This document shows, in pieces, positions 8,682 to 34,053 of a DNA stretch of 64,000 nucleotides. How positions within the stretch are numbered: position 1 is the first letter of the stretch; each line of letters starts with the position of its first letter. The DNA is taken from the NCBI GenBank assembly GCA_029762625.1, contig JARVGI010000001.1:124001-188000 (forward strand), given 5' to 3'. The notes below the pieces were generated by a model. The model made no database searches. It saw nothing but the letters and a program-made list of their open reading frames with translations, and had not been told where the DNA came from. The position numbers and the translations under genes were made by a program. Source of the stretch: Methanomicrobiaceae archaeon (GTDB taxonomy: Archaea; Halobacteriota; Methanomicrobia; Methanomicrobiales; Methanomicrobiaceae).

Positions 8682-8756
8682 GTTCATTTGCTATTGTGGC
8701 ATAATTATATCTTTAAATACCAAATCGGTCCTCAATTAGGCGATAAATCTCATATT

Positions 8757-8798
8757 TAAAGGATATGCATCATCGATATCCTTAAATCTGGAATATCC
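8757..8798. promoter_or_regulatory. inverted repeat TTTAAAGGATAT/ATATCCTTAAA plus extra half-site
   Basis: The arms GGATAT (8761-8766) and ATATCC (8776-8781) lie within a longer imperfect palindrome that pairs TTTAAAGGATAT with ATATCCTTAAA around a 9-base spacer, one A being bulged. A further ATATCC follows at 8793-8798, just ahead of a TATA-like TCTATATT. The arrangement is that of an operator beside a promoter for the gene at 8845. Confidence 0.4.
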
Positions 8799-8844
8799 TT
8801 TCTATATTGGAACATTCATCCAGCACATCCCCGAGGTGGGAGCC

Positions 8845-9246
8845 ATGTGTGAAGCAGTGACTGACGCAAGTGTCATCGAGCACTTCAAAACAGGGGGCGC
8901 ATGGGGCCTGTACACCTGTGTCGACCTCAAGGGGTGCAACCCCGAGACCATTCGTAATGCAGACAGAATACGTGCGTTCATCATCGAACTGTGCGACCTC
9001 ATCGACATGAAGCGGTTTGGAGATCCGCAGATCATCCATTTCGGCCCCAATGATCGCGTCGCCGGGTATTCGATGACCCAGCTCATCGAAACATCGCTGA
9101 TTTCGGGACATTTCGCCAACGAATCAAACGCTGCCTACCTTGATATATTCAGCTGCAAGGAGTACGCCCCCACGGTCATGGCGGAATTCTGCAAGGAGTT
9201 CTTCGAGGCCGTCTCGATGACCTACCAGGTCATCATGCGGGAATAA
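8845..9246 (+). CDS. S-adenosylmethionine decarboxylase-like protein
   Basis: A 133-residue protein resembling the small class 1B AdoMet decarboxylases (SpeH), which self-cleave to make a pyruvoyl cofactor for spermidine synthesis. The start is ATG 8845, six bases after GAGGTG; GTG 8836 gives three extra residues. The family core aligns as TSLISGHF...LDIFSC, placing Ser84, His89 and Cys104 with spacings of 5 and 15, the same as I recall for the processing Ser, His and Cys of the T. maritima enzyme. The usual ESHIS is changed to ETSLIS, so activity and self-cleavage are not certain. Agmatinase and aIF5A elsewhere in the window would fit a polyamine role. Confidence 0.75.
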   Translation: MCEAVTDASVIEHFKTGGAWGLYTCVDLKGCNPETIRNADRIRAFIIELCDLIDMKRFGDPQIIHFGPNDRVAGYSMTQLIETSLISGHFANESNAAYLDIFSCKEYAPTVMAEFCKEFFEAVSMTYQVIMRE

Positions 9247-9395: not shown

Positions 9396-11243
9396 GTGAC
9401 GCTCCGTGCCCTGGCCCTCCTGATCCTGGTCTGCATACCACCGGGCATCCCGTGCGGGCTCTGTGCATCGCTCGATATCCCGGCGGTTGAAGAACTGAAT
9501 GAAGCCCTCGGGCCCGAACAGGCGGCGATATACCTCCTTCCCGGGCTGCAGGAGGGTCAGACGGTCTATGTCTACGCCGAGGGGGTGTCGGGCAACCTCG
9601 ATCCTTTCGCCGCCATCGCCCCCCCAGATACCCCCCCGGGGCTGAGGGCGAATTTCGATGCGGAGGTCGAGCAGGCTATCGAGGAGGGCAGGGACCCCCT
9701 TCAGGTCGTTCCCGAATTTTCCGACCGCTACTTTCTGGCCTGGGACGATGACGGCGGCGAGGGGTATGACGCCGCCTTCCAGTATACCGTGCCGGATAAA
9801 GGGGACTATATACTGATCGTCACCAACAGCCCCGCAAAATCCGAGACCTTCGGGAGATTTCGCCTCCTCGTCGGGATCGACGCCCCGCAGGTGCTCGCCG
9901 GCGATGCGGCGCCGACGGGGGAGCGCATCGCCGTGCTGAACCAGGAGGCGTCGCAGATAGACGTCGGGGTGCAGGAGGTGCGCGGGAACCTCACCGCAGG
10001 TCAGGCGTCCTGGCAGTATTTCCTCTACCCGGTGGAGGAGGGGGATGTCTTCTACGCCTACATCGAGGTGACCTCCGGCAACCTCGTGCCGATGCTCATC
10101 CTTACGGATTTCGGGGACAAACCGCTTGCCAAGGGCATTCCCGCGAACCGTACGCAGGGCGCGCGGCTGCAGCACACCTTCGGGGACACCTGCTGCAATA
10201 ACATACTGGAAATCGTCGACGTTTTCGGCGGAAGTACCCTGAGACAATACCGCCTTCTGGTGGGCCTCAATGAGCCCGAGGTTCTCACCGGATCGGCCGA
10301 ACCGGGAGGGGAACCGGTCCTCCGGGAACCGATCGTCGTCAAGGTGGGCTTCCAGCTCGACCAGATCACCGGTGTCGACCAGAAAAGTGAAAATTTCGGG
10401 GTGGTCGGCAATATCTGGATGGAGTGGACGGACCCCGAGCTGGCGTTCAGCCCCGACGAATGCAACTGCAACTACAAGCTCTACCGGAGCATCGATGAGT
10501 TCTTGAAAGCGGAGGGGACGCGGTGGCCCGAATTCACCCTCTTCAACCAGCAGGAGCGGCGGTGGACGCAGAACCTCCTGATCCGCGTGACCCCTGACGG
10601 GACGGCGACCTACTTCGAGCGGTTCTGGGTCACGCTGCAGGCACCGGACTTCAATTTCCGGGAGTACCCCTTCGACGAACAGCAGTTCTACGTGCGCATC
10701 GATTCCATCTACGCGGAGACCTTCTTCGTCTACACCCCGTGGGAGGAGCGGACCGCCGTGGGGTCGCAGCTGGGGGAGGAGGAGTGGTACATCACCGCGT
10801 ACAATACCACCATCGACCAGGTCAATTTGACCAACGTCAATTCACGGTATTCGTTCGGGTTCCTGGCACAGCGCCACCTTGAGTTCTACATCCTGCGCAT
10901 TCTCATCCCCATCGGGATCATCATCGTCCTGACCTACATCCCCTTCCTGCTCAAGGACTACGGGAAGCGTGCCGACATCGCCTCGGCGAACCTCCTGCTC
11001 TTCATCGCCTTCAACTTCACCATCGCCAACGATCTCCCGCGGCTGGGGTACCTCACCCTCCTCGATTCACTTCTTGTGACGACTTTTGTGATCAGCGGTC
11101 TGACGGTTGTTTATAATCTCTATCTCAAATGGCTGGCCACACAGGAACAGATGGAGATCGCCGAACGCGTCGATAGGATCATGATCTGGCTCTACCCGCT
11201 GGCCTATATCCTGGCTATTGTGGTGATCCTGCACGTGTTTTAA
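9396..11243 (+). CDS. pentameric ligand-gated ion channel (Cys-loop receptor family) with duplicated extracellular N-terminal region
   Basis: Predicted neurotransmitter-receptor-like channel of 615 residues. A signal peptide (1-24) is followed by two similar beta-rich units; residues 46-79 and 208-240 match (YxLxPxxEGxxxYxYxExxSGNLxP), and each unit ends in RLLVGxxxPxVLxG (near 156 and 286). The ligand-binding domain begins near 312 (VVKVGFQLDQI...WMEWTDPEL) and contains the family YPFDEQQ at 424-430. Four membrane helices follow: M1 ~497-517 with the conserved proline (RILIPIGI), M2 ~527-546, M3 ~553-575 after LPRLGYLTLLDS, and M4 ~593-614. There is no disulfide Cys-loop, as in other prokaryotic members. 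The start is GTG. The N-terminal units resemble PPC-like beta domains, which is inference. Confidence 0.88.
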   Translation: MTLRALALLILVCIPPGIPCGLCASLDIPAVEELNEALGPEQAAIYLLPGLQEGQTVYVYAEGVSGNLDPFAAIAPPDTPPGLRANFDAEVEQAIEEGRDPLQVVPEFSDRYFLAWDDDGGEGYDAAFQYTVPDKGDYILIVTNSPAKSETFGRFRLLVGIDAPQVLAGDAAPTGERIAVLNQEASQIDVGVQEVRGNLTAGQASWQYFLYPVEEGDVFYAYIEVTSGNLVPMLILTDFGDKPLAKGIPANRTQGARLQHTFGDTCCNNILEIVDVFGGSTLRQYRLLVGLNEPEVLTGSAEPGGEPVLREPIVVKVGFQLDQITGVDQKSENFGVVGNIWMEWTDPELAFSPDECNCNYKLYRSIDEFLKAEGTRWPEFTLFNQQERRWTQNLLIRVTPDGTATYFERFWVTLQAPDFNFREYPFDEQQFYVRIDSIYAETFFVYTPWEERTAVGSQLGEEEWYITAYNTTIDQVNLTNVNSRYSFGFLAQRHLEFYILRILIPIGIIIVLTYIPFLLKDYGKRADIASANLLLFIAFNFTIANDLPRLGYLTLLDSLLVTTFVISGLTVVYNLYLKWLATQEQMEIAERVDRIMIWLYPLAYILAIVVILHVF

Positions 11244-11322
11244 TCAGTTCTCGATCTGGATGCCGGTTAGCCTCTGCTGGGCTTCGTGGGAGTAAAATCG
11301 GGATTGGAGGTGTGGATAGCTG

Positions 11323-12426
11323 TCAGGGCCGGATCGAGGGATCCAGGAGCGCCGGAACGGAAACCCCCCGCAGCGCAACCGCAGCGAGCGCCCCCACCAC
11401 GCCCCGCCCGCCGGCGAGGCGCACCCCATAACGGATGGCAATCGCTTCGCAGGTCTCTGTGGACACCCGTTGTGCCCGGGTATCCAATCCATAGGATCGG
11501 AGGCCGTCGGGGATGGTAAAGCCGGTTTTCATGGCGAGCCCCCACTCTTCCGAAATCGACTCGTCCGAGATAAACCGTGACGCTCGATCCATGATCCCAC
11601 CCACGACTCCCGGTTCTGCGGCAAGCTCGATGTAGCTGCAGGAATTTCCGGCGGTCCTTTCTTCGATGCCAGGATACAGCATGACAACCCTGTGCATGAT
11701 GGGAATGATCCCTGGCATTTTCGAGAGGTGCTGCAGCAACGCGATTGCCAGCGCAAAGGTGGCGCCGGCATTCCTTGCATCCGTGTCATCGAGACCGATG
11801 ATCACGTGGGTCAGCGCTCTCGTATAGACCTCGCCCTCGACGGTATCCCCGTAGCGCAGCACATTGACGTTTTCAACCCCCTCGGCCATCGCCATCATCT
11901 CGGTCAGGGAAAACGCAGGACCGCCGGTACACCGGATGTGCTGGATGACGTAGTCGCCCTCCCTCCGCACCCCGACCACGCCCACCGCCGCTTTCGGGTG
12001 GAGGCCGATCTCCGCGGTCCCCTCGCCGAGACGCGCCAGTTCGAACAGCAACGTCCCGTCACGGGCCACCTCGGTGACGACGCCCCCTGCTTTGCGGTGA
12101 TGATAGGTGCAGAACGCGGCACACCCGCCGCTCATGCATTCATGGTAAATGCTCACCAGATTCCCGTCAACAGTGGTGAAAATGCGCTTGCAGACGCTGG
12201 AGAGCATGGCGCTGCTGGCCGCGTACCGGGCGGGGTGTCGTCCCCGTTTTTCCTCTTTCAGGACGACGCACCGCTCCTCGATGAGCCGGTTCACCCAGTC
12301 CTGGGCCGTGCTCCGGGGCATCCGGGTAAGGTCCGAGAGATCGTGCACCGTAAAGCTGCCCGCATCGAGGGTCAGCTGCCGCATTAAATCGAGCAGTTCT
12401 CGTCGTTTCTCAAGTACGCTCGACAT
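11323..12426 (-). CDS. HTH protein with DDTD (TiaS-like / methanogenesis marker 11-like) domain
   Basis: 367-residue protein with a winged-helix-like N-terminus (residues ~1-70: FTVHDLSDLTRMPRSTAQDWVNRL) joined to a larger domain with several cysteines (CMSGGCAAFC) and the motif VIIGLDDTDARNAGATFALA. A DDTD motif of this kind occurs in TiaS, the tRNA-Ile2 agmatidine synthetase, and I believe in methanogenesis marker protein 11; the match to the latter is from memory. The start is ATG 12426, which lies inside the end of hom (17-base overlap), so the two are co-translated. An operonic role in threonine/methionine supply or its control is possible. Function unproven. Confidence 0.65.
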   Translation of the reverse strand: MSSVLEKRRELLDLMRQLTLDAGSFTVHDLSDLTRMPRSTAQDWVNRLIEERCVVLKEEKRGRHPARYAASSAMLSSVCKRIFTTVDGNLVSIYHECMSGGCAAFCTYHHRKAGGVVTEVARDGTLLFELARLGEGTAEIGLHPKAAVGVVGVRREGDYVIQHIRCTGGPAFSLTEMMAMAEGVENVNVLRYGDTVEGEVYTRALTHVIIGLDDTDARNAGATFALAIALLQHLSKMPGIIPIMHRVVMLYPGIEERTAGNSCSYIELAAEPGVVGGIMDRASRFISDESISEEWGLAMKTGFTIPDGLRSYGLDTRAQRVSTETCEAIAIRYGVRLAGGRGVVGALAAVALRGVSVPALLDPSIRP

Positions 12427-13396
12427 GGCAATCACGGATGAAGAGAATATCGGCGATGATGGCGCTCGCGGTTTCACGCGAACCCGCCCCTCTCCCGATA
12501 AGCGTGATCTCGCCCGCCATATCCGTCTCCACGGTCACCGCATTCAGGGTGTCCCTGACCACGAGGGAGTGATCCTTCGAGAGCACGCGGGGCGAGACCT
12601 TGAGTATCCGCTTTTCCGGGATGATTTCTCCGATAAGGCGGATGGTGCAGTTGAGATCCTCGGCAAGGGCGAGGGCATCGGTGGTCAGGCCGTCGATCCC
12701 GGTGATATCCACATCATCGAGGGATGCGTTGAGGCCCCAGATGCTGTTGGCGAGGATGACCAGTTTTATTGCCGCATCGACGCCTTTCACGTCATAGGTG
12801 GGATCGGCCTCCGCATACCCGAGCTCCCGGGCTTCGAGCAGCGCCTGGCTGTAGCTTAAACCCTCGTCGGTCATGCGGGTGAGGATGTAGTTACAGGTGC
12901 CGTTGAATACGCCGTTGAGCGCGGTGATGGTATTGCCCGCAAGGCCGATTTCCAGTGCCTGAATGAGGGGGATCGCCCCGCACACGGTGGCTTCGTACCG
13001 CAGCTGGACATTACGGGATGCCGCCAGCTGCATCAGCGCGTCATACCGGAGAGCGATCGGGCCTTTGTTCGATGTGACGACATGCCTGCCCGCTGCAAGG
13101 GCGCGAGTGATATAGCCGAGCGCGGGGTTTGCGCTGTCGGCATTCGTGGGGGTGACCTCCACCAGCACATCGTACACCCCGGATTCGATAACATCATCCG
13201 CCGTGATTCCCGGGGTTCCGCACAATCCTGTCGTCCGTTTCCGCTCCAGCACATCCCGGATGTCGATCCCGTCGGCGTCGATGATGCCGCTGCGTGAGTC
13301 CGCCACCGCAGTGATGGAAAGACCGAGATCCTTCTCACTCACCGCTTCGGCAATGCCCCTCCCGACGGAGCCGAAGCCCAGCAACGCGATTCTCAT
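12410..13396 (-). CDS. hom: homoserine dehydrogenase
   Basis: NAD(P)-dependent reduction of aspartate semialdehyde to homoserine, on the way to threonine and methionine. At 328 residues it is the short form, without a C-terminal ACT domain. It shows the N-terminal GFGSVGRGIAEAV nucleotide-binding loop, TSNKGPIAL, and the catalytic-domain block GAIPLIQALEIGLAGN...NGTCNYILT. The missing regulatory ACT domain is supplied by a separate gene directly upstream whose stop overlaps this start (ATGA). Downstream it overlaps the HTH/DDTD gene by 17 bases, making a three-gene operon read on the minus strand. Confidence 0.96.
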   Translation of the reverse strand: MRIALLGFGSVGRGIAEAVSEKDLGLSITAVADSRSGIIDADGIDIRDVLERKRTTGLCGTPGITADDVIESGVYDVLVEVTPTNADSANPALGYITRALAAGRHVVTSNKGPIALRYDALMQLAASRNVQLRYEATVCGAIPLIQALEIGLAGNTITALNGVFNGTCNYILTRMTDEGLSYSQALLEARELGYAEADPTYDVKGVDAAIKLVILANSIWGLNASLDDVDITGIDGLTTDALALAEDLNCTIRLIGEIIPEKRILKVSPRVLSKDHSLVVRDTLNAVTVETDMAGEITLIGRGAGSRETASAIIADILFIRDCHVERT

Positions 13397-19009: not shown

Positions 19010-19370
19010 ACCATTGCTATGGCATCTCGTGCTATTTTAATGCATACCTTTTTAAAGCCCCGGCCGATTCGCCCGTCCGTGCGATATACTCGACGATGAA
19101 CCGCTTTCCGGATTGGATTCATGCTGGTGTCCTGCGGATGAGGAAACCACGGGTATGCAATATGGTTATTCCCAATGGTCAATCACATATGATGAACAGG
19201 AAGGATAATCTTTAATACTATTTTGCGGATGTGCCCGTATTTTCGGGTTTTCGCCAGGTTACTTAAGAACCTTTCTGCATTCAATAAACAAAGTATATAA
19301 ATGATTTCTATCTTTATATTTATCATGAATATTGGAGGGATCCGATATTCGTTTGAATGGAGGCATTGCA
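19010..19370 (+). other. 361-base intergenic region upstream of the archaellin gene
   Basis: Between the divergent surface protein gene and arlB. It becomes very AT-rich from about 19195 on, with a strong TATA-like element at 19294-19302. The expected transcript has a leader of nearly 50 bases, unusual beside the short leaders elsewhere in the window, and includes TTGGAGGGATCC at 19332-19343 and the Shine-Dalgarno GGAGG at 19360-19364. Confidence 0.55.
19294..19302 (+). promoter_or_regulatory. TATA box of arlB
   Basis: TATATAAAT preceded by the purine-rich AAACAAAG that could act as BRE. It is the best TATA match in the window, fitting the high expression expected for archaellin. Confidence 0.6.
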
Positions 19371-19931
19371 ATGCGAAAATTCATGAACAGAGAAGAAGCA
19401 TTCACAGGTCTTGAGGCCGCCATCGTGCTGATCGCGTTCGTCGTGGTCGCCGCGGTCTTCAGTTACGTCGTTCTCGGCGCCGGGTTCTTCACAACACAGA
19501 AGAGCCAGGAGGTCGTTGCCAGCGGTGTTTCGCAGGCATCGTCCAGCATGCAGATCCTCGGTGATGTGTATGGACTTGGAAATGGCACTGAACTCGGAGC
19601 TGTTCAGTTCACCCTTGGATTGACCGCCGGTGGTTCTGCCATCGACATGGAAAAAACAACCCTTGTCTGGTCCACTTCCGAAACCGTGGAGACGCTCGCG
19701 TTTAATACAAGTGCCAGTGCTGGAAATTGGGCAATCATCGAGAAAAATAATGGTGATGATGATAATCTGCTTGAAGACTACGAGCAGTTCGTGATCAAAG
19801 CCATGCCGAGTAACGGTATCGGTGTCAACACGAACTTCAAGCTGGAAATTCGGCCCTCTATCGGTGCGACCATCGCCATTGACGAGAAGGTTCCGCCGCA
19901 GGTCGATCCGGTCATGGACCTGACCAGATAA
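19371..19931 (+). CDS. arlB: archaellin (flagellin), filament subunit
   Basis: The structural subunit of the archaellum filament, 186 residues before processing. The start ATG 19371 has GGAGG eight bases ahead; an upstream in-frame start at 19332 lacks conserved residues. The N-terminus is a class III signal: short charged leader with NREEAFTG, then LEAAIVLIAFVVVAAVFSYVV, so the prepilin-peptidase (ArlK/FlaK) should cut after the glycine at about residue 13. The rest is beta-rich with Asn/Ser/Thr sites suited to N-glycosylation (NGT, NTS). It is the only archaellin copy here, small for the family, and has its own promoter; a T-rich stretch follows the stop. Confidence 0.95.
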   Translation: MRKFMNREEAFTGLEAAIVLIAFVVVAAVFSYVVLGAGFFTTQKSQEVVASGVSQASSSMQILGDVYGLGNGTELGAVQFTLGLTAGGSAIDMEKTTLVWSTSETVETLAFNTSASAGNWAIIEKNNGDDDNLLEDYEQFVIKAMPSNGIGVNTNFKLEIRPSIGATIAIDEKVPPQVDPVMDLTR

Positions 19932-20237: not shown

Positions 20238-21074
20238 ATGGCGATCAATCAGGCGCAGGTGGACCATATTATCAGCACCGCATCCGCCGACGACCCCGAG
20301 GTGCAGATGCAGCGGCTGCAGGATGATGTGGACCTCATCAAAAAATCCATTAAAAAGCTCCTCATCGATATCCGTGACCGGATGAACGAGCTGGAGAACC
20401 CCTTCGTGCTCGGGGCCAATCTTCCCGGTGCTCCGGCACAGCATTCGCACACCCAGAGCGGCGAGAAAACGAAGGAGAGCACCCCCGCAGAGGAGCTCGA
20501 ACCCGAGGTTCCGGCGCAAAAAACGGTGCAGCAATCCCCGCAGATCGCGGCCCTGGGCCCCGTCCAGGAGCTGCACGCTCACGCACCGCCCATGGGGATC
20601 GGTGCCGGCCAGCTGGCTGCCGACGAGCAGCTCCTCCACAGCATCAGGCAGCAGCTGGAGAAGGAGCACACACCTGCACCTGCCGCCAGCGAAAAACTGC
20701 GCCTGCACAAGATTCATCGCCTCTTCGACTGGACCGGGAGGATGGTCAAAAAGTACGGTCACGACCGCCTGGAGATCATGATCGAGTCCTATACCGCCAT
20801 GGGCTACATCTCGAAAGACGCCTGCGCCCAGATAAAGGAAATCACCCGCCTGATGCCGGAATCGCTCGGTGAATCGCATGAGATCAGTTCGAACGCCTAC
20901 GTCTCCGAGCTCTACGTCCTCAACCGCATTCTCGACCCCGGCGACCAGTCGCTCGACCGGGACATGATCGAGGTGCTGATGGACAAGCAGCAGACCCCCG
21001 GAACGGGGAAGAACGCTGAGGGGAAAGTGCGGGAACCCGGCGAAGACTGGATCGACGTGCTTGAAAGGATCTGA
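20238..21074 (+). CDS. archaellum motor scaffold protein ArlC/D/E fusion
   Basis: Cytosolic scaffold of the archaellum motor that receives the chemotaxis signal through CheF and CheY. The 278 residues comprise an N-terminal coiled-coil region (ArlC/ArlE-like, MQRLQDDVDLIKKSIKKLL, residues ~22-60), a disordered Pro/Glu/Ala-rich linker (~70-145) and the conserved ArlD/E domain (KLRLHKIHRLFDWTGRMV...GYISKDACAQIKEI, ~150-215) followed by LNRILDPGDQSLDRDMIEVLMDK. A single fused gene replaces the separate arlC, arlD and arlE of other euryarchaea. It opens the motor operon and is followed three bases later by the next gene. Confidence 0.87.
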   Translation: MAINQAQVDHIISTASADDPEVQMQRLQDDVDLIKKSIKKLLIDIRDRMNELENPFVLGANLPGAPAQHSHTQSGEKTKESTPAEELEPEVPAQKTVQQSPQIAALGPVQELHAHAPPMGIGAGQLAADEQLLHSIRQQLEKEHTPAPAASEKLRLHKIHRLFDWTGRMVKKYGHDRLEIMIESYTAMGYISKDACAQIKEITRLMPESLGESHEISSNAYVSELYVLNRILDPGDQSLDRDMIEVLMDKQQTPGTGKNAEGKVREPGEDWIDVLERI

Positions 21075-21077
21075 CGG

Positions 21078-21575
21078 ATGTCGAGCGATACATTCACCAC
21101 CGCAATATTTTTAATTGCCGCAGTGCTCGCCGCAGCAGTCCTAGTGAACGCATTTTTTCCCGCGATCTACTCGGCCTCGAGCACCTTTACCAAATCGTCG
21201 CAGAGCGCCGACGAGCGGTTGCGCACCGACATCAAGATCATCAACACCTTCTCGGGTGCGGGGACCCGAGCGGCACACGTCTGGATAAAGAATATCGGGT
21301 CGACCCGCATCCCGGAAACCAGTATCGGGAACGCCAACATCTTCGTGGGTGCGCCTGCCGATTTTGAAATGGTCGCCTATACGGCAGGGGAGCCGGCAAA
21401 CCACCAGTGGACCTTCACCATCATCGAGGACGCCAACCGGTACTGGGACGCGGGGGAGACGATCTGCATCGAGGTCAGCAGCGACAAAATCCCCGCAGGA
21501 AGCACCGACGTGGTGTACTTTCAGATCGTGCTTCCCAGCGGCGTGCTGCGGACAGAAGAATTTACCGTGAGTTGA
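21078..21575 (+). CDS. arlG: archaellum stator-type protein, ArlG-like
   Basis: A 165-residue membrane-anchored protein: residues ~9-30 form one hydrophobic helix (TAIFLIAAVLAAAVLVNAFFP) and the rest is a beta-sandwich domain on the outside (RLRTDIKIINTFSG, HVWIKNIGSTRIPE). ArlF and ArlG together form the filament that ties the rotating motor to the S-layer. The assignment as ArlG rather than ArlF rests on the AIFLIAAV type N-terminus and on its neighbour looking like ArlF; the two could be swapped. The gene starts three bases after arlCDE. Confidence 0.75.
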   Translation: MSSDTFTTAIFLIAAVLAAAVLVNAFFPAIYSASSTFTKSSQSADERLRTDIKIINTFSGAGTRAAHVWIKNIGSTRIPETSIGNANIFVGAPADFEMVAYTAGEPANHQWTFTIIEDANRYWDAGETICIEVSSDKIPAGSTDVVYFQIVLPSGVLRTEEFTVS

Positions 21576-21581
21576 TGTGGC

Positions 21582-22058
21582 ATGGGCCTGGGATCGCTGA
21601 TTGCATCGGCAGTCGCCATCACCCTGCTGGTGATCACGGCCTATGTGATCATCGGCGGGACGATCGCCACCGCGGAGATCGTCTCTCTCGCCCAGGATGA
21701 ACATGCACGCACCCTGCAGAAAGCCATACGGACCTCCATTGACATCGTGCAGGTGGACGTCGATGCAAATGCCTCGGTGGTGAACGTGGATGTCTATAAC
21801 GCGGGAAGCGAGATCATCGCCGATTTCGACCGTATGGACGTGTTCGTCATCTATGACGCCGAACCGCAGTACGTATCCGTCGGGACCGGGCCCGGCACAT
21901 GGAGTCGGGGCGCGATCACCCCCGACGCCGTCCACCCGGGCCAGCTCGATCCGGGAGAGACCGTCACCATCTCCATTGCCTACACCGGCGGCGACCCGCC
22001 CGCATGGGTGCAGGTAACGACGGGCAACGGTGTCTGTGATTCGGCATACGTGACCTGA
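21582..22058 (+). CDS. arlF: archaellum stator protein, ArlF-like
   Basis: 158 residues with an N-terminal membrane helix (GSLIASAVAITLLVITAYVII) followed by a heptad-like stretch (residues ~25-50) and an extracellular immunoglobulin-like beta domain (DVDANASVVNVDVYNAGSE). This layout is that of ArlF, which binds the S-layer and anchors the motor. It sits between the ArlG-like gene and arlH. Low overall conservation makes the F/G naming tentative, but membership of the stator pair is well supported by order and topology. Confidence 0.75.
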   Translation: MGLGSLIASAVAITLLVITAYVIIGGTIATAEIVSLAQDEHARTLQKAIRTSIDIVQVDVDANASVVNVDVYNAGSEIIADFDRMDVFVIYDAEPQYVSVGTGPGTWSRGAITPDAVHPGQLDPGETVTISIAYTGGDPPAWVQVTTGNGVCDSAYVT

Positions 22059-22072
22059 AGGGAGGAATACAA

Positions 22073-22819
22073 ATGGGAGATAGCAGGGGGACGGGAATCG
22101 GGGACCTTCTCGGGGGGGACGATAAAAACATCCTCTCGACCGGAAACCCCGAGATCGACAAAAAACTCGCGGACGGCCTGCCGCTCGAATCCCTCACGCT
22201 CATCGAGGGGGAGAACGATACCGGGAAGAGCGTCATGACCCAGCAGATCATCTGGGGGGCGATGAAGGGGGGCATGGATGTCGACCTCTACACCTCGGAG
22301 AACACCTCCAAGAGTTTTATCAACCAGATGGAGTCGATGAGCCTCGACATCTCCGACTATTTCGCCTGGGGGCATCTGCGCATTTTTCCGATGCATATCA
22401 CCGGGTTCAAATGGTCGGAGGACGAGATGCAGGATGTGCTGATGCGGATCATCCGGCACATGAAGACAAGCAAGGCCGGGGTCATCGTGATCGACTCGCT
22501 CACCCTGATCACCGAATATACCGGGCAGGCCGACATCCTCACCTTCCTGACGAGCTGCAAAAATCTGGTCGACCACGGAAAGACCATCCTGATCACCCTG
22601 CACACGTATGCCTTCGAAGAGGACACCCTCGTCCGCATCCGCTCCATCTGCGACGCCCACCTGTTCATGAAAAAGGCCCTCGTGGGGGACAAGTACGTGA
22701 TGGTCATGGAGGTGGTCAAGGTCCGCGGGGCCCGCAAGACCACCGGCAATATCGTTTCGTTTGAGGTCCACCCGGGCTACGGCATGAAGATCATCCCGAT
22801 TTCGATGGCGAAGGTGTAG
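22073..22819 (+). CDS. arlH: archaellum motor regulator ATPase ArlH
   Basis: KaiC/RecA-like ATP-binding protein that docks on ArlI and is thought to switch between assembly and rotation. At 248 residues, the Walker A variant GENDTGKS is at 46-53 and the Walker B-like GVIVIDSLTLI near 140. The start follows GGAGGAAT with good spacing. Order arlF-arlH-arlI-arlJ matches other euryarchaea. The Walker A lacks the second glycine of the strict consensus, as is usual in ArlH. Confidence 0.94.
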   Translation: MGDSRGTGIGDLLGGDDKNILSTGNPEIDKKLADGLPLESLTLIEGENDTGKSVMTQQIIWGAMKGGMDVDLYTSENTSKSFINQMESMSLDISDYFAWGHLRIFPMHITGFKWSEDEMQDVLMRIIRHMKTSKAGVIVIDSLTLITEYTGQADILTFLTSCKNLVDHGKTILITLHTYAFEEDTLVRIRSICDAHLFMKKALVGDKYVMVMEVVKVRGARKTTGNIVSFEVHPGYGMKIIPISMAKV

Positions 22820-22822
22820 TGT

Positions 22823-24685
22823 ATGAGTTCACTGAGTGCTGCGATCAGTCTCCCGTTCAAGCCCGAGATCCTCGACGACGAAAACGATTATTCCGAGAAT
22901 ATCGAGTCCTGTGCACTCTACCGGATGCTCCCGGCCAATGCGCGGGAGTACGTCACCCAGAGTCCGCACCTCCTCGAGTACCTCCTGATGTTCCCGGTGA
23001 ACACCTTCGGCATCCCGCTCTTTTTCTCGGAGCTCAAGCGCGACCTGAAATCAATGGAGAATCCCAATATCATCTACCCGGTCAACGATATGACCTTCGT
23101 CCACATCTTTCCGGACGAAAACGACGTGCGCAACTATTACATCCCCATCGAACCGTCGTTTTTACACAGCGTTGCAGAATGTTTCTCGCTTGTCGAAAAG
23201 CGGCTGGTCGACCTGATCGATGCCCTCGATGAAGACCCGGTGACCGACGAGGAACGCATCGGCGTGCTCAGGCGGGCGCTCCGGGAGATCATCTACGTCA
23301 AACAGCCGGGAGAATCCATCGAGAGCATATTTTCGGAAAGGGAGGAGAAAAAAAAGGTGAAGAACCGGATCGTGGAGTTCCTCAATACCGATTTCACGGC
23401 AAAAAAGGCGTTCGAGAAGCAGAAGGTCCCTGCAGGGGTCGACGTGCTCCCCGACGGCAGGATCGTCCTCTCCTCACAGGAATTCCGGTCGCTCGAGTAC
23501 CTGATCATCCGGGACAAGATCGACATGGGCATCCTCAAGCCGTTTCTCGACGACCCCTACATCGAGGATATCACCTGCGACGGCGTGGGCCCCATCTTCA
23601 TCGAGCACAAGATTTTCAAGGGGCTCAAATCCGCGGTGGAGTTCAGGGAATCGCATGAAATCGATGAATTCGTGATAAAAATGGCGGAGCGCATCAAGCG
23701 GCCGCTCACCTACCGCAACCCCATCGTCGATGCCACGCTCCCCGACGGCTCGCGTATCAACATCGTCTACGGAACGGAGATCAGCAAACACGGGAGCAAT
23801 TTCACCATCCGCAAGGTGTCCGAAGAGCCGGCGAGCATCCTGCAGCTGATCGACTGGAAGACCACCGATTATATGGTCGCCGGCTATCTCTGGATCTGCA
23901 TCGAGTTCGGGATGTCCCTCTTTATGAGCGGGGAGACGGCGAGCGGAAAGACGACGAGCCTGAACGCCATCACCACTTTCATCCCGCCGGAAAACAAGAT
24001 CATCACCATCGAAGACACTCCCGAACTGACCGTCCCCCATAAAAACTGGAGCCGTGAAGTGTCGAAAGGAAAGGGGAAGGGTGAAGGCGAGGGATCGGAT
24101 GTCACCATGTTCGATCTCCTCAAAGCCGCCCTTCGCCAGCGCCCGAACCAGATCCTGGTGGGGGAAATACGCGGGGCGGAAGGGTCGGTGGCCTTCGGCG
24201 CAATGCAGACCGGACACCCGGTGATGAGCACCTTCCACGCGGCATCGGTGGAAAAGCTCATCCAGCGTCTCTGCGGAGACCCCATCAATATCCCGAAAAC
24301 GCACGTCGACAACTTAAATATCGTGATCATCCAGAGCGCGGTCCGCCGCCCGGACGGGAGCATGGTGCGCAGGATGCTATCCATCAACGAGCTGGTCGGC
24401 TATAACCCCGAAACACAGGGGTTCTCCTTCGTCTGCATGTTCCAGTGGGACCCGGTGACCGACACGTTCATCTGGACCGGCAAAGGGAGCAGTTTCCTCC
24501 TTGAAAACAAGATCGCCACGATGCTCGGCATCCCGGAGCATAAACGCTCGGATATCTATTTTGAGGTCGAAAAGCGGGCAAAAATCCTGGAACGTCTCCA
24601 TAAAGCGGGGTATACCGGGTTCTGGGATCTCTACCACATGATGACCAAGATTAAAAAACAGGGGCTCCTCAAGATCGAGATCTGA
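22823..24685 (+). CDS. arlI: archaellum assembly and rotation ATPase ArlI
   Basis: Type IV-pilus-type secretion ATPase that drives filament assembly and rotation. Of 620 residues, the N-terminal ~230 form the extended domain; the catalytic domain has SGETASGKTTSLNAI (Walker A, near 370), the Asp box IEDTPELTVPH, the Walker B region NQILVGEIRGAE near 445 and a His-containing HPVMSTFHAAS. A short insertion of lysine/glycine repeats (KGKGKGEGEG) lies near residue 417 between these motifs. It starts three bases after arlH and is followed directly by arlJ. Confidence 0.96.
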   Translation: MSSLSAAISLPFKPEILDDENDYSENIESCALYRMLPANAREYVTQSPHLLEYLLMFPVNTFGIPLFFSELKRDLKSMENPNIIYPVNDMTFVHIFPDENDVRNYYIPIEPSFLHSVAECFSLVEKRLVDLIDALDEDPVTDEERIGVLRRALREIIYVKQPGESIESIFSEREEKKKVKNRIVEFLNTDFTAKKAFEKQKVPAGVDVLPDGRIVLSSQEFRSLEYLIIRDKIDMGILKPFLDDPYIEDITCDGVGPIFIEHKIFKGLKSAVEFRESHEIDEFVIKMAERIKRPLTYRNPIVDATLPDGSRINIVYGTEISKHGSNFTIRKVSEEPASILQLIDWKTTDYMVAGYLWICIEFGMSLFMSGETASGKTTSLNAITTFIPPENKIITIEDTPELTVPHKNWSREVSKGKGKGEGEGSDVTMFDLLKAALRQRPNQILVGEIRGAEGSVAFGAMQTGHPVMSTFHAASVEKLIQRLCGDPINIPKTHVDNLNIVIIQSAVRRPDGSMVRRMLSINELVGYNPETQGFSFVCMFQWDPVTDTFIWTGKGSSFLLENKIATMLGIPEHKRSDIYFEVEKRAKILERLHKAGYTGFWDLYHMMTKIKKQGLLKIEI

Positions 24686-24686
24686 T

Positions 24687-26288
24687 ATGTTCAAACAGAC
24701 CGTGGAATCACTCAGGGCGAAAAACGGCGGCTCTCTCCCCTTCGAAAGCACGTTCGCAAGCATCAGGCAGAAGCTGGATGACGTGCTGGAGAACAAACGC
24801 ATGGGTGGCGACATCCTCTTCATGACCACCTATATGGCCGCCATCACGACTGCCCAGGTTTCGCGGCCGGAAATTTTTTCAAAGACGTCGACCCGGATAG
24901 AGTACGTCTCGTCAAAATACATCGAAAAAGTGGAGTTCTTTGTCAAAAAATGGAATTACAGATACGCGCAGGCGTTGCGTCTCGTGGCGGAACGGTGCCG
25001 GAACGCCATCCTGCGCAGTATGCTGAACCGGTATGCAAACGCCATCGACTCCGGTGTCCCCGACGACGAATTCCTGACGCTCGAACTATCCACGGTGCGC
25101 AGCGTCTACCGCAACACCTTCGAGCAGGGATTCGAGATGCTCAAAAAGTGGGGCGATGCCTACATCGCCATGATGCTCTCAGGGACCATCGTGGGGATCA
25201 TCATCATGGTCTCGGTGGCCATCTATTCTCCCGATGACATCGATGCCACCCTCAATATGTCCTACGCCATCATCCTGATGATCTCCGTCTTCGGCATCAC
25301 CACCATGTACCGGTCCATCCCCGAGGATTCAAAGACCCACGGTCTTCCCGGACAGGGCTCGCACGAACAGATGATGATTCGGAGCCTCGAACGGGTGATC
25401 GTTCCGGTAGCGCTGGTGAGTGCAGTCCTGCTCGCGCTGGCGGGTATCAATGCAGGCCTCATCGCCATCTTCGTGGGAGTGCTGTTTGCCCCGCTCGGCA
25501 TCATCGCCCTGAAGGACGACATGTATATCCAGAGGCGTGACGAGGACTTCACCGTGTTCCTGCGCGGACTGGGGTCGATTATGGGGGGCAAGGGGCTCAC
25601 CACGACGTATGCGCTTGCGGAGGTGGACCGCAAATCGCTTGAAGTGCTGGGATCGTTTGTCGATGCGGCCTATTCGAAGCTGAACCTCGGCCTCAGTGAT
25701 GCGCTGGTCTGGGAGCGGTTTATCCGGGATTCGGGCAGCAATCTCATTTACAAGTACCTCAACATTTTCCGGGACTCCATTGCACTGGGAGGGTCCCCTG
25801 CCGATATCGGCAAGATTGTCAGCTCCTCGATGCTCGAGATGGTGCTCCTCCGCAAAAAACGCGAGATGCTCACGACCAGTTTCATCGTGCTCCTGATCCC
25901 CATGCACGTGGCGATGGTGGCGATCTTTGCCTTCCTCTACCACATTCTCCTGACCATGTCCCATGCAGTCCAGGAGGTGATGACGGCCTTCGAGGAGACC
26001 AGCACCGGGGCGCTGAGCGGGGGCAGCGGTTCTTTGGGCGGTTCGATGGCGGATTCGATGAATATCTTCGTCAACTTTCCCGAGGATACGATGGGCATGT
26101 ACCTTATCATCACCCTGTTCATGATCACCGTGTCCAATATCCTTGCGGGAAAAGTGGTGAAAGGCGGTGACCGTTCGATGCTCTACTTCTTTGGAAGCGT
26201 CCTGTTCGCCCTCACCGGCATCGTGTATATCGTGACGCCCATCGTCGTCGAGTCCTATTTCCAGATACCCGCGTATGGAGCGATTTAG
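24687..26288 (+). CDS. arlJ: archaellum membrane platform protein ArlJ
   Basis: Polytopic core of the motor, equivalent to PilC/GspF, binding ArlI on the cytosolic side. The 533 residues hold an N-terminal soluble part (~1-150), a pair of membrane helices near 155-210, two more near 235-270, a second cytosolic domain (RRDEDFTVFLRGLGSIMGGKG..., near 280-400) and three further helices to the C-terminus. The duplicated T2SF-like cytosolic domains and position after arlI make the call secure. It ends with TAG directly before the ATG of the acidic protein gene. Confidence 0.94.
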   Translation: MFKQTVESLRAKNGGSLPFESTFASIRQKLDDVLENKRMGGDILFMTTYMAAITTAQVSRPEIFSKTSTRIEYVSSKYIEKVEFFVKKWNYRYAQALRLVAERCRNAILRSMLNRYANAIDSGVPDDEFLTLELSTVRSVYRNTFEQGFEMLKKWGDAYIAMMLSGTIVGIIIMVSVAIYSPDDIDATLNMSYAIILMISVFGITTMYRSIPEDSKTHGLPGQGSHEQMMIRSLERVIVPVALVSAVLLALAGINAGLIAIFVGVLFAPLGIIALKDDMYIQRRDEDFTVFLRGLGSIMGGKGLTTTYALAEVDRKSLEVLGSFVDAAYSKLNLGLSDALVWERFIRDSGSNLIYKYLNIFRDSIALGGSPADIGKIVSSSMLEMVLLRKKREMLTTSFIVLLIPMHVAMVAIFAFLYHILLTMSHAVQEVMTAFEETSTGALSGGSGSLGGSMADSMNIFVNFPEDTMGMYLIITLFMITVSNILAGKVVKGGDRSMLYFFGSVLFALTGIVYIVTPIVVESYFQIPAYGAI

Positions 26289-27596
26289 ATGAAAACGGCA
26301 ACACGCAGAATCATTCTTCTTGTGACCTCGGTACTTGCGGGCGGCGTGCTTGTTCCGTTCGACGCACCGGTGTACCTTGTGCTCCTCAATACCGTCATGG
26401 TGGGGTGCATCATGCTCATCCTGCTGGGAATGGTCCGGGTATCGAAGGGCGGAACGAAGACCGGTGAGGCACCACCCGCACCGGAGCCGAAGGAGAAACC
26501 GAAACAACGTTCACTCGATCCGGGGGCACGCCTTGGCGCATTAAGGCAACGAATCGCAAACCGGAAGCCGGCGGCAGCACCCGCAAAAGAAAGGGTCGCC
26601 TCACGACGCCCCCGTCGGGCGGGGATCCACTCGCATCTCTGCGGCGCGGTCTCGGCCATCTCGGCAAGCCTGCAGGCGTGGCGGAACAAGGAGAAAGAGA
26701 CCGAGAAGATCGACTCCCTCCTTGACCGGGCATTAGCGGATCCCCTCGCCGATGACTTTCCCACCTTCGATCACCTCGCCGCCGGCGGGGATCACACCGA
26801 TGCATCCGACGTGGAAGAGCGTATCGCGCAAAAGATCGATAAACTGACCTCGCTCACCCCCGACGAGCTCAAACACCTCGAAACCGAGGTGCACGAGAAA
26901 CTGTTCGGCGAGGAAGAGGGTTCTTCCGATGCATTCGCCTTTGACGGCGGCGAAATCTCCGGATTTGATCTTCCGGTAGCCGGTGAAACCCTGCATGAGG
27001 AGTCCGACTTTGACGAGGAGGACATCACCGCTCTCGATTCCATCGATCTCCCCGAAGGCGGTGAATTTCCGGGTCCGGGATCCGGATCTCCGGGCGATAT
27101 GTCGTTGAGCGATGCATTCCCCGACCTGCCGTACGGCGAGGAGGAACCCTCTGCCAATACGGCCGATATCGATCCTTCCGAACTGGATCATATCGGCGAT
27201 CTCTCGGATATGGGATTCGGTGACGAGGATCTCGCCGACCTCGAGAGCATCGATCTCGGTGACATTGAGCCTGAGGCGGGTGAAAGAGAGGAAGACGACG
27301 AAGAAGCGCCGTTCGATGCCGGTGACCATGACCCCCGGCTCATTGCAGTGGAAGCGCCGGGAGCGGGGGATCCGGATACGGGCCCTGATCCCGGCACCGA
27401 CGATGATGTCGGCTCATTCGGGTTCGGGGGGGACGAGGACGCGGACATCATGCAGATGCTCAAGCAGGAGACCCGGCGCCCCCGGGTTGTCCAGGACGCA
27501 AGTCTCCTGCGGGATCTCAAGGACGTCGATGTGGATGCCCGCGAACTCGTCGATGAACTCGAATCTGTCCTCAATACGCTGAATAAAAAATCATAG
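26289..27596 (+). CDS. acidic membrane-anchored protein between archaellum and chemotaxis genes, function unknown
   Basis: Unrecognised 435-residue protein. Two hydrophobic helices (residues ~7-25 and ~28-47) anchor it, and a short basic segment (~50-110, rich in Lys, Arg and Pro) precedes a long, very acidic and probably disordered region (~150-395) with loosely repeated units of the form D-E-D-x-x-x-L-(D/E)-S-I-D-L. It ends in a helix-forming segment (VVQDASLLRDLKDVDVDARELVDELESVLNTL). The ATG abuts the arlJ stop, so it is in the motor operon, with cheF 33 bases downstream. A tether or docking platform is a guess from place and composition. Confidence 0.8.
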   Translation: MKTATRRIILLVTSVLAGGVLVPFDAPVYLVLLNTVMVGCIMLILLGMVRVSKGGTKTGEAPPAPEPKEKPKQRSLDPGARLGALRQRIANRKPAAAPAKERVASRRPRRAGIHSHLCGAVSAISASLQAWRNKEKETEKIDSLLDRALADPLADDFPTFDHLAAGGDHTDASDVEERIAQKIDKLTSLTPDELKHLETEVHEKLFGEEEGSSDAFAFDGGEISGFDLPVAGETLHEESDFDEEDITALDSIDLPEGGEFPGPGSGSPGDMSLSDAFPDLPYGEEEPSANTADIDPSELDHIGDLSDMGFGDEDLADLESIDLGDIEPEAGEREEDDEEAPFDAGDHDPRLIAVEAPGAGDPDTGPDPGTDDDVGSFGFGGDEDADIMQMLKQETRRPRVVQDASLLRDLKDVDVDARELVDELESVLNTLNKKS

Positions 27597-27629: not shown

Positions 27630-28439
27630 ATGAAAGAAGTTCCTGTAAAAATCGAAGTCGAAAACAGATGGGTTGTATCGAAGATCGGTATCGGCGAGGA
27701 CAGGATTCACCTCCATGATCCGGTGAATCTGGACATTCCCCTCAAATCAATTGTCGACATCGAGGAGAAGAAAAACACCCTGCGTATCGAGGTAAAGGGA
27801 ACACCTCCCACCGGGTACAGGGTGGCTTCCGTCCCAAAAGTCCTCACCGCCCTGAAAAGGGTCGTCATCATGTCCTGCACCGCCTACCGGCTGATGGCGT
27901 ATTTCATGTCCCCCGCGGTCAGGGGCGGGGTGCTGGTGAAAGATGCGAAATGGGAGAAGGGAGCGATCGCAGTGCTGAAAACGGGCATCTGGTTTGTGAG
28001 CCAGCAGAAGCAGATAAGCATCCCCCTCGGGGACGTCTCCGGCATCGAACTCACGACGCGGGAGGTGAATGGCAAAAAGACCGATGTGGTCAAGATCGAT
28101 CATGTCGAGAGCGGCGGCGTGAGTACGTCATACGTGCTCTGCCCGCTCACCACCCTCCAGATCCTCTACAATTTCCTGAAAGATGCGACAAAAGAGATGG
28201 ATATGAATGGAGACGAGCTCGGTCCAGTGGCGGCGCAGGTGTCCATGCTGGTATACAGCGGCATGGACTCGAGTGCGATCGAGAAAATGCTCTCCATTTC
28301 CAACGACGAGCTCGAATCGGTGTTTGACACCCTGCTCGACCTCGGGATCGTGGAGGTCGTCTGCACCCGCCGGGAGGTGCAACTCACGACGAAAGGGGTC
28401 CGTTTCGTGACGGATGCGGCGAAGCATCCTTCCAATTGA
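27630..28439 (+). CDS. cheF: archaeal chemotaxis adaptor CheF
   Basis: Archaea-specific protein that links CheY to the archaellum scaffold ArlCDE. The 269 residues show the family layout: an N-terminal beta-rich region (VVSKIGIGEDRIHL...LKSIVDIEEKK), a middle similar unit (GIWFVSQQKQISIPLGDVSGIELTTREV, suggesting an internal duplication of a PH-like fold) and a C-terminal winged-helix-like end (MDSSAIEKMLSISNDELESVFDTLLDLGIVEV). GGAGAGAT precedes the start. It is 33 bases after the acidic protein and 59 before cheY. Confidence 0.9.
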   Translation: MKEVPVKIEVENRWVVSKIGIGEDRIHLHDPVNLDIPLKSIVDIEEKKNTLRIEVKGTPPTGYRVASVPKVLTALKRVVIMSCTAYRLMAYFMSPAVRGGVLVKDAKWEKGAIAVLKTGIWFVSQQKQISIPLGDVSGIELTTREVNGKKTDVVKIDHVESGGVSTSYVLCPLTTLQILYNFLKDATKEMDMNGDELGPVAAQVSMLVYSGMDSSAIEKMLSISNDELESVFDTLLDLGIVEVVCTRREVQLTTKGVRFVTDAAKHPSN

Positions 28440-32375: not shown

Positions 32376-32893
32376 GGCATCTGAACACAAAGAGCATTGA
32401 TCTGCCGGCACCACCTGCGCTCCCGCAGCAGTGCGTCAACGTGGGGATTGGCGCCTACCATACGGGGACCTGCGCCATGACCGCGATCGGCCTCGGCTCG
32501 TGCATCGCGCTCGTGCTCCACGACACGAGACATGCTGTCGGTGCATGTGCGCACATCATGCTTCCCGAGAGCGGCGGAAAAACCGACCGCCCGGGAAAGT
32601 ACGCGGATACGGCGATCCCCCTGCTCATCGGGGAATTGACCGCACTGGGGGGGGTGAAACGCTCCTTTGTTGCAAAAATCACCGGCGGAGCGAGCATGTT
32701 TTCAAATTTCCAGGGAAAGCTCAATATCGGTGAGCGCAACATCGAAGCGGTGCGGGCGCACCTCGAGGCGCACGGCATCCCGGTTGCGGCTGAAGATATT
32801 GGTGGCACGGTGGGAAGAACACTCCACTACAACCCGGCAAACGGCGGGAACATTTCTGTGAAAAGAGCGGATGGGTCGTGCAGAGAATTTTAG
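32372..32893 (+). CDS. cheD: chemoreceptor glutamine deamidase CheD
   Basis: Deamidates glutamines of chemoreceptors and partners with CheC. The 173 residues carry the catalytic Cys in GLGSCIALVLHD (near 48), the His in GACAHIMLPES and a later Thr-containing KITGGASMF. It begins with GTG inside the cheC stop. The C-terminal RTLHYNPANGG is typical. The next gene, a secreted propeller protein, begins 16 bases before its stop. Confidence 0.94.
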   Translation: MRHLNTKSIDLPAPPALPQQCVNVGIGAYHTGTCAMTAIGLGSCIALVLHDTRHAVGACAHIMLPESGGKTDRPGKYADTAIPLLIGELTALGGVKRSFVAKITGGASMFSNFQGKLNIGERNIEAVRAHLEAHGIPVAAEDIGGTVGRTLHYNPANGGNISVKRADGSCREF

Positions 32894-34053
32894 TCAGCGT
32901 CCTCGGCATCGTGCTTCTTCTGGCCGTACCCGTATCCTCCTCTATCATCCTCTTCTCGCCGGGTTCTGATTCGCTCTCCTCCCTCGGCGTCAGGGACATC
33001 ACCGACGGGCCGGGAACTACGGTTCTCCTTGCGACCGACAACGGAAGGTCAATCTTCAACGGCACGTGGGAGATCGTGCATGTCAACCGGGCGGAGTACC
33101 AGCGCGGTCCGCTCGGCGATTTCGTGACCGCCCTTGCATACGACCATCACATGCGCCTCTGGATCGGGTACTCAAACGGCCTCCAGATCCTTGAGGGATC
33201 GGCCTATACCACCATCACCGACCAGCAGCTGCTGAAAAACCTGGCAATAAACGATCTCCGGCGACGAGGCGATGAAATGTGGGTTGCCACGGGCCATGCA
33301 GGGCTGCACCGGTATCGCGACGGAACATGGACGTGGTTTCGCCCGCACGGCGCGAGCGGGCTCGGGAGCTATGAAATTCGCAGCATGGCGGTCGATTACG
33401 TGACCGGTGCCCTCTATTGCGCTGCAGACGACGGAGCGATGTGGCTATTCGAGGATTCCAGCGCTACCTTTTCCCGGGTCGGAAATTGCGATATCGTTCT
33501 CTGCGCTCCGAGATCGCTCGTGAGCTGTCCCTTCGGCGGGATTGCGTGCTTCAATGCCACGGCGGTGTACCGGGTCGGCCCCGACCGCCGGGTACAGCTG
33601 CTCGCAAACGCCACGGATCTGCCCTGGCACACGGTGTCGATCACCGACATCGCGTTCATGGACGACGGCACGCTGGTCATCGGCACCGACAGGGGGATCG
33701 TGTTCTGGCACAATGGCACGGCAACGCGCGTGCTCACGCAGAAGGACGGTATCGGAGACCAGATGATCAAACGCGTCTACGTGGACAATGCTGGCCGGAT
33801 ATGGTTTTTCAACCGTGTATATGCAGGGATGGTCATCCCCGAAGCGGCAGATGACCCCCTCGTCATCGCCGCGCCCACTGCTGCTCCCGCGCCCCTGCCC
33901 CCCGGGCCCTGCGGCAATGCCACGCCAGCACCCGATGAACGGCCCGCCGAGAGCTCGGGTGAAAAATCTCCCGCCTCTCTTCCGGCGACGATTATCGATG
34001 CGATTCGATCGGCCCTCGAAGCATTCTTCGGCATGTTCGCCGGCGCGGCATGA
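32878..34053 (+). CDS. secreted beta-propeller protein coupled to cheD
   Basis: 391-residue protein with a signal peptide (RILVSVLGIVLLLAVPVSSS) and a repeated blade pattern like that of Reg_prop sensor domains: MRLWIGYSNGLQIL, EMWVATGHAGLHRYRDGTW, ALYCAADDGAMWLFED, TLVIGTDRGIVFWHNG, GRIWFFNRVYAG. After the propeller (~30-320) comes a Pro/Ala-rich linker (~325-365) and a final amphipathic helix (IIDAIRSALEAFFGMF). It starts with GTG inside cheD (16-base overlap), so it is translated with the chemotaxis operon. Unlike bacterial propeller sensors it has no kinase or receiver. Function unknown. Confidence 0.75.
   Translation: MQRILVSVLGIVLLLAVPVSSSIILFSPGSDSLSSLGVRDITDGPGTTVLLATDNGRSIFNGTWEIVHVNRAEYQRGPLGDFVTALAYDHHMRLWIGYSNGLQILEGSAYTTITDQQLLKNLAINDLRRRGDEMWVATGHAGLHRYRDGTWTWFRPHGASGLGSYEIRSMAVDYVTGALYCAADDGAMWLFEDSSATFSRVGNCDIVLCAPRSLVSCPFGGIACFNATAVYRVGPDRRVQLLANATDLPWHTVSITDIAFMDDGTLVIGTDRGIVFWHNGTATRVLTQKDGIGDQMIKRVYVDNAGRIWFFNRVYAGMVIPEAADDPLVIAAPTAAPAPLPPGPCGNATPAPDERPAESSGEKSPASLPATIIDAIRSALEAFFGMFAGAA

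Follow-up and report, generated by a model that had tools for sequence, protein, structure and literature searches.

Results

The locus and the gene behind arlJ

The window analyzed here, the whole stretch of 64,000 nucleotides, carries an archaellum and chemotaxis locus whose genes (coordinates on the forward strand) follow the order archaellin (19332–19931; PF01917 match at 19398–19880, 126 bits), a gene for an ArlDE-like switch protein (20238–21074; PF04659, 3.9e-4, just under the cut-off), an arlG-like gene (21078–21575; best NCBIfam match ArlG, 1e-11, below the cut-off), an arlF-like gene (21582–22058; PF01917; best NCBIfam match ArlF, 2.6e-8, below the cut-off), arlH (22073–22819; NF052589, 267 bits), the motor ATPase gene arlI (22823–24685; NF058587, 742 bits), the platform protein gene arlJ (24687–26288; NF004703, 703 bits), the arlJ-follower gene (hereafter X), cheF (27630–28439; PF04283, 3.9e-15), cheY, cheB, cheA, cheC, and cheD. 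As set out in the text of PMC1914349 and PMC12488501, arlG before arlF is the defining order of the fla2/arl2 type, and the locus is assigned to the arl2 type because the arlG-like gene precedes the arlF-like gene. On the 3' side of cheD lies a gene with weak matches to Reg_prop/WD40 propellers (32878–34053, forward strand), relatives of which are present in 36 of the 53 fetched loci of the order and stand directly behind X in four cheF-less loci (L083, L098, L102, and L110).

X is an open reading frame of 435 amino acids (26289–27596, forward strand) belonging to a family kept behind arlJ. As described in the initial annotation, its ATG at 26289 abuts the arlJ stop codon, which ends at 26288, and the cheF start at 27630 comes 33 bases past its own stop. 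A GGAG within the 3' end of arlJ (26277–26280, forward strand), 8 bases from the ATG, may act as its ribosome-binding site.

Searches of Pfam and NCBIfam with X returned nothing above the cut-offs (a weak match to EzrA, E = 0.008, was far below), a sequence-profile search of PDB chains returned none at E = 0.1, and there was no match to the CheF domain PF04283. PF04659 and PF05377, to which arl1 proteins match strongly, unlike X, gave no match at E = 0.1. In the main text of the literature searched (including PMC4858521, PMC1914349, PMC2666748, PMC8978795, PMC12488501, and PMC9126983) no gene after arlJ is named; a figure legend in PMC1914349 describes unnamed genes annotated as hypothetical, and X may be drawn unlabelled in that figure. 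Its initial placement outside the known Arl/Che set thus holds for the family libraries and literature searched: the rotary machine is already known, and X appears to be an undescribed component in that literature.

Protein anatomy

X begins with a predicted transmembrane (TM) hairpin (residues 3–45; 26295–26423, forward strand, as for all segments below), indicated by two peaks of hydrophobicity (residues 8 and 28) and by helices at residues 3–21 and 28–45 (pLDDT about 80–87) in an AF2 model that had a mean pLDDT of 59.4 and a pTM of 0.24 and from which only helices were used. A linker of basic composition follows (residues 51–140; 26439–26708; 20 K/R against 9 D/E over residues 66–150), then a conserved KIDxLLD motif (residues 137–147; 26697–26729), in which D142 is kept in at least 90% of 52 sequences, and a mostly disordered acidic arm (residues 148–371; 26730–27401) with 66 D/E against 7 K/R over residues 151–360 and low pLDDT over most of its length. 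The protein ends in a two-helix module (residues 372–433; 27402–27587) with AF2 helices at 384–395, 404–408, and 417–433 and with R408 invariant in the 52 sequences. By the positive-inside rule, the hairpin is predicted to lie in the membrane with the arm in the cytosol. Mean column identity in the alignment of 52 is 21%; the C-terminal module is the conserved part, and the arm and membrane part are variable.

Hydropathy, composition, and AF2 all agree with the two N-terminal helices, basic patch, acidic middle, and helical C-terminus first noticed by the initial annotation. The D-E-D...L-x-S-I-D-L repeats reported with them fared less well: the motif exists, with SIDL at residues 251 and 320, but as just two copies and not as a repeat array, and a looser version occurs 0–2 times per protein in the 52 homologues.

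Comparison with known archaellum and switch proteins

ArlCDE (FlaC, FlaD/E), the proteins of the switch ring, are like X encoded in the same locus and are thought to be cytosolic motor parts, and haloarchaeal ArlCE, judged by eye, share with X a hydrophobic start and acidic repeats; X differs in having no PF04659/PF05377 match and in a window that already has an ArlDE-like gene. When X was compared by hhalign with the ArlDE-like family found in these loci, P was 0.12–0.59 (0.5 for Chloroflexota), and a C-terminal shuffle test of the X groups against ArlDE-like proteins gave 1, 46, 7, and 16 of 100, the first of these out of register. These profile comparisons found no homology between X and the ArlDE-like family. 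The idea that X supplies the missing ArlC of arl2 was rejected, as FlaC domains of arl1 loci look different, and an ArlC-like NPFV stretch seen by eye in the ArlDE-like protein of the window counts against it as well. CheF (PF04283) adjoins X in the locus and differs from it in domain, and X is kept where CheF was not found.

Two ArlCE proteins that carry FlaC and Fla_DE domains (L236, 3636–5156; L239, 9990–11510) open with a hydrophobic stretch, which may be their own membrane anchor, and continue into acidic DDEFGDF-type repeats. In L236, an arl1-type, haloarchaeal-looking locus, a MinD/ParA-type ATPase with an acidic tail is encoded behind arlJ (10471–11472).

Conservation within the order

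A search with X alone produced matches in 46 of 60 relatives, and when the loci were read one by one an X-type open reading frame lay directly behind arlJ in every genome with a strong arlJ, whether full or split (55/55). Of these frames 52 were taken as intact; the others were cut by a contig end (G053), frameshifted through sequencing error or true mutation in a one-contig genome (G041, locus L096), or, in a second one-contig genome (G008), split by an insertion with arlJ intact, a natural disruption of X. The G008 insertion (L065, about 11000–12745) spans about 1.7 kb at 35% GC and carries a transposase-like open reading frame of 436 residues on the other strand. No X match was found in the five genomes lacking a full or split strong arlJ (G006, G011, G047, G049, and G052), two of which are incomplete assemblies.

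The second draw comprised 392 genomes from the phylum, 83 of which belong to the order; among these 83, X was present in 68/68 with arlJ and 0/15 without, the latter spread over several genera. The 52-member profile includes many second-draw genomes, though not, for example, G181, G184, G193, and G202. Among all the loci read, not just those of the order, X lies upstream of arlJ in G189, and one gene stands between arlJ and X in G109 and G150. That X is a real, conserved gene is confirmed, an open reading frame in the same place in 55 loci being beyond chance, and both draws bear out the conservation on which the initial annotation had made its reading depend.

Relatives outside the order

Outside the order, the 52-member profile had weak matches in 15 genomes, and in the 13 that were fetched the matches lay at the end of arlJ, except for a second match in G299 (L146, about 8700–8850, minus strand), a stray copy of the C-terminal module only, several kb from the arl genes. 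Twelve distant relatives were aligned (198–372 amino acids), each with one N-terminal TM segment, an ExIDxxL-type motif similar to KIDxLLD, and a C-terminal module as in X. Aligned by hhalign, the order and the twelve matched with a probability of 97.8 (E = 1.1e-12, 62 columns; 0/100 shuffles), placing the two-helix module in common between the order and other Halobacteriota-type genomes. The name of the order and the labels Methanosarcina and ANME-1 used for genome groups are our presumptions, partly from gene content; Chloroflexota names are those of the records.

A profile built from the twelve matched 97 of the 392 genomes, of which 37 lie outside the order, and the two profiles together marked 105 genomes, all with an arlJ match at 1e-40 or better. 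Outside the order, 36 of the 64 genomes with a strong arlJ (E below 1e-100) were marked, and the 37th marked genome, G286, has a split arlJ. Neither profile matched any of the 125 genomes with only a weaker, arl1-like arlJ or the 134 without arlJ; weaker matches are read by us as arl1-type from the bimodal scores. Ten arl1-like loci were also read directly, and in none did the module lie behind arlJ.

Among the 28 unmarked arl2-type genomes, 20 were read by hand and each had an open reading frame behind arlJ, with a good C-terminal HMM match in G192a (E = 1.7e-6) and G378 (E = 3.5e-7) and weak or no matches in the others. For the followers of group f10 the HMM ranking was mixed, another open reading frame scoring best in several loci. 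In G259, X seemed to be fused to a response regulator, a reading rejected because the frame crosses an assembly gap of N.

Candidates in Chloroflexota

A query with the Litorilinea aerophila archaellin retrieved 57 Chloroflexota loci, 19 of which had ArlJ and ArlH and 18 of which extend past arlJ. A follower lay within about 70 bases of arlJ in all 18, and the candidates keep this place in loci without a CheF match; by eye, TM segments stand at the start in 14/18 and a similar helical stretch at the end in all. No convincing match emerged from a direct HMM search of the Chloroflexota loci, and full-length hhalign comparisons with f10, the Methanosarcina-type second loci, and the Chloroflexota followers gave low probabilities (P 0.0008–0.38), the best Chloroflexota match to A1 falling in the N-terminus. 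When the C-terminal 75 columns were compared for the ten pairs of five groups, the value was reached by 0–2 of 100 shuffles, mostly in matching register, in a test whose shuffling destroys helix periodicity; it supports the homology of the f10, Methanosarcina-type, and Chloroflexota followers without proving it. On this basis relatives of X apparently exist in some bacteria. Followers with no clear TM segment occur among the candidates in f10, in the Methanosarcina-type second loci, and in four Chloroflexota loci, and amphipathic N-termini in these followers were mostly not above shuffles. In G405, one of two arl loci encodes an X with a TM segment.

X and the chemotaxis genes

CheF connects signalling to the motor, as described in the text of PMC9126983. 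All six arlJ-bearing relatives with no CheF match (G028, G036, G043, G048, G053, and G058) keep X behind arlJ. The five intact copies from these genomes have net charges of −29 to +4, compared to −17 to −97 for the other correctly read copies; four of the five belong to one family, and acidic candidates with no CheF match were found in f10. CheF-dependence as the main role was rejected on the persistence of X in these six relatives, and the chemotaxis half of the initial proposal finds no support as the main role. Because X is kept without cheF and, within the order, is lost whenever arlJ is lost, it very probably serves the archaellum and not CheF alone.

The gene after X or its candidate differs by lineage, encoding a HisKA-domain protein in L144 (9296–9967), an FHA-GAF-HATPase protein in L269 (18154–19836), and, judged by sequence, a response-regulator-like protein in 7 of 12 f10 loci.

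Discussion

X is very probably a component of the archaellum. That it is a fast-evolving hypothetical gene riding in the operon with no archaellum function is very improbable: the low overall identity and the single genome in which an insertion splits X are of the kind a passenger would show, but co-loss with arlJ in several genera and a C-terminal module conserved across families argue against it.

As to what it does, a membrane part linked by a variable arm to a conserved tip suggests a tether from the membrane platform to a cytosolic motor part, a leading reading that we hold tentatively, at slightly under even odds. X would be an accessory part of motors of the arl2 type (arlG before arlF), its gene lying immediately after arlJ, with its N-terminal hairpin in the membrane beside ArlJ and its flexible acidic arm extending into the cytosol, where the C-terminal two-helix module may dock on a conserved part of the motor such as the ArlCDE-like ring, ArlH, or ArlI; such docking would tie the cytosolic ring to the membrane platform. 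The initial annotation had proposed a scaffold or docking tether, and the anatomy (an anchor, a disordered arm, and a conserved terminal module) fits it, which gives that proposal partial support; we infer both the docking partner and the tether function. If the candidates with no clear TM segment are true relatives, anchoring would not be a universal function, as these would have no clear membrane segment.

ArlX (FlaX) of Thermoproteota is similar to X in having a membrane segment and a cytosolic part and in belonging to arl2-type motors; it differs in that arlX lies between arlB and arlG and not behind arlJ, and the likeness is by description, not sequence. According to the text of PMC8978795, ArlX encircles the motor as a ring and stabilises ArlJ, the TM segment of ArlX is missing from ArlCDE, and an anchor in the cytoplasm has been proposed. 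X is one candidate for this link.

The strongest alternative, if an unlikely one, is that X is an assembly partner that stabilises ArlJ or aids its insertion or assembly and plays no part once the motor runs. X adjoins arlJ, with which it is probably translationally coupled, the two are lost together, the membrane segment of X stands next to a membrane protein, and the text of PMC8978795 reports that in Sulfolobus the stability of ArlJ depends on ArlX; against this, it is the cytosolic C-terminal module that is conserved while the membrane part varies. Rather more doubtful is a chemotaxis docking site, in which the acidic arm or the C-terminal module would bind CheF or another phospho-signalling protein. 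In this locus and in most relatives cheF comes straight after X, phospho-signalling genes follow in two other loci and response-regulator-like genes in most f10 loci, and the intact cheF-less copies in the order are less acidic, but X is kept in all six relatives with no CheF match, and the charge difference is offset by the four copies that form one family and by the acidic candidates elsewhere with no CheF match. A role in anchoring the motor to the polar cap, or in positioning it at the pole, seems less probable still. X is predicted to be membrane-bound with a long disordered arm, and the polar cap is described in PMC8978795 as a euryarchaeal structure near the motor of unknown protein content, but X is absent from arl1-type genomes, and the texts of PMC1914349 and PMC8978795 place the cap in arl1-type Pyrococcus and Thermococcus.

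Returning to X as a tether, a bolder extension, which we rate on the unlikely side, would make the arlJ follower an ancestral and obligatory part of every archaellum of the arl2 type that uses ArlCDE, common to Halobacteriota and archaellated Chloroflexota, and the missing connection to the membrane by which the cytosolic ring is kept against the turning ArlJ, in the role that ArlX has in Thermoproteota. Should the Chloroflexota candidates prove to be true relatives, X would have travelled between archaea and bacteria together with the archaellum. X also offers a marker gene that tells arl2 from arl1 loci. The list of archaellum parts has been regarded as close to complete. The text of PMC8978795 leaves open what keeps the cytosolic ArlCDE ring in place during rotation of ArlJ, and X would provide a direct handle on that question.
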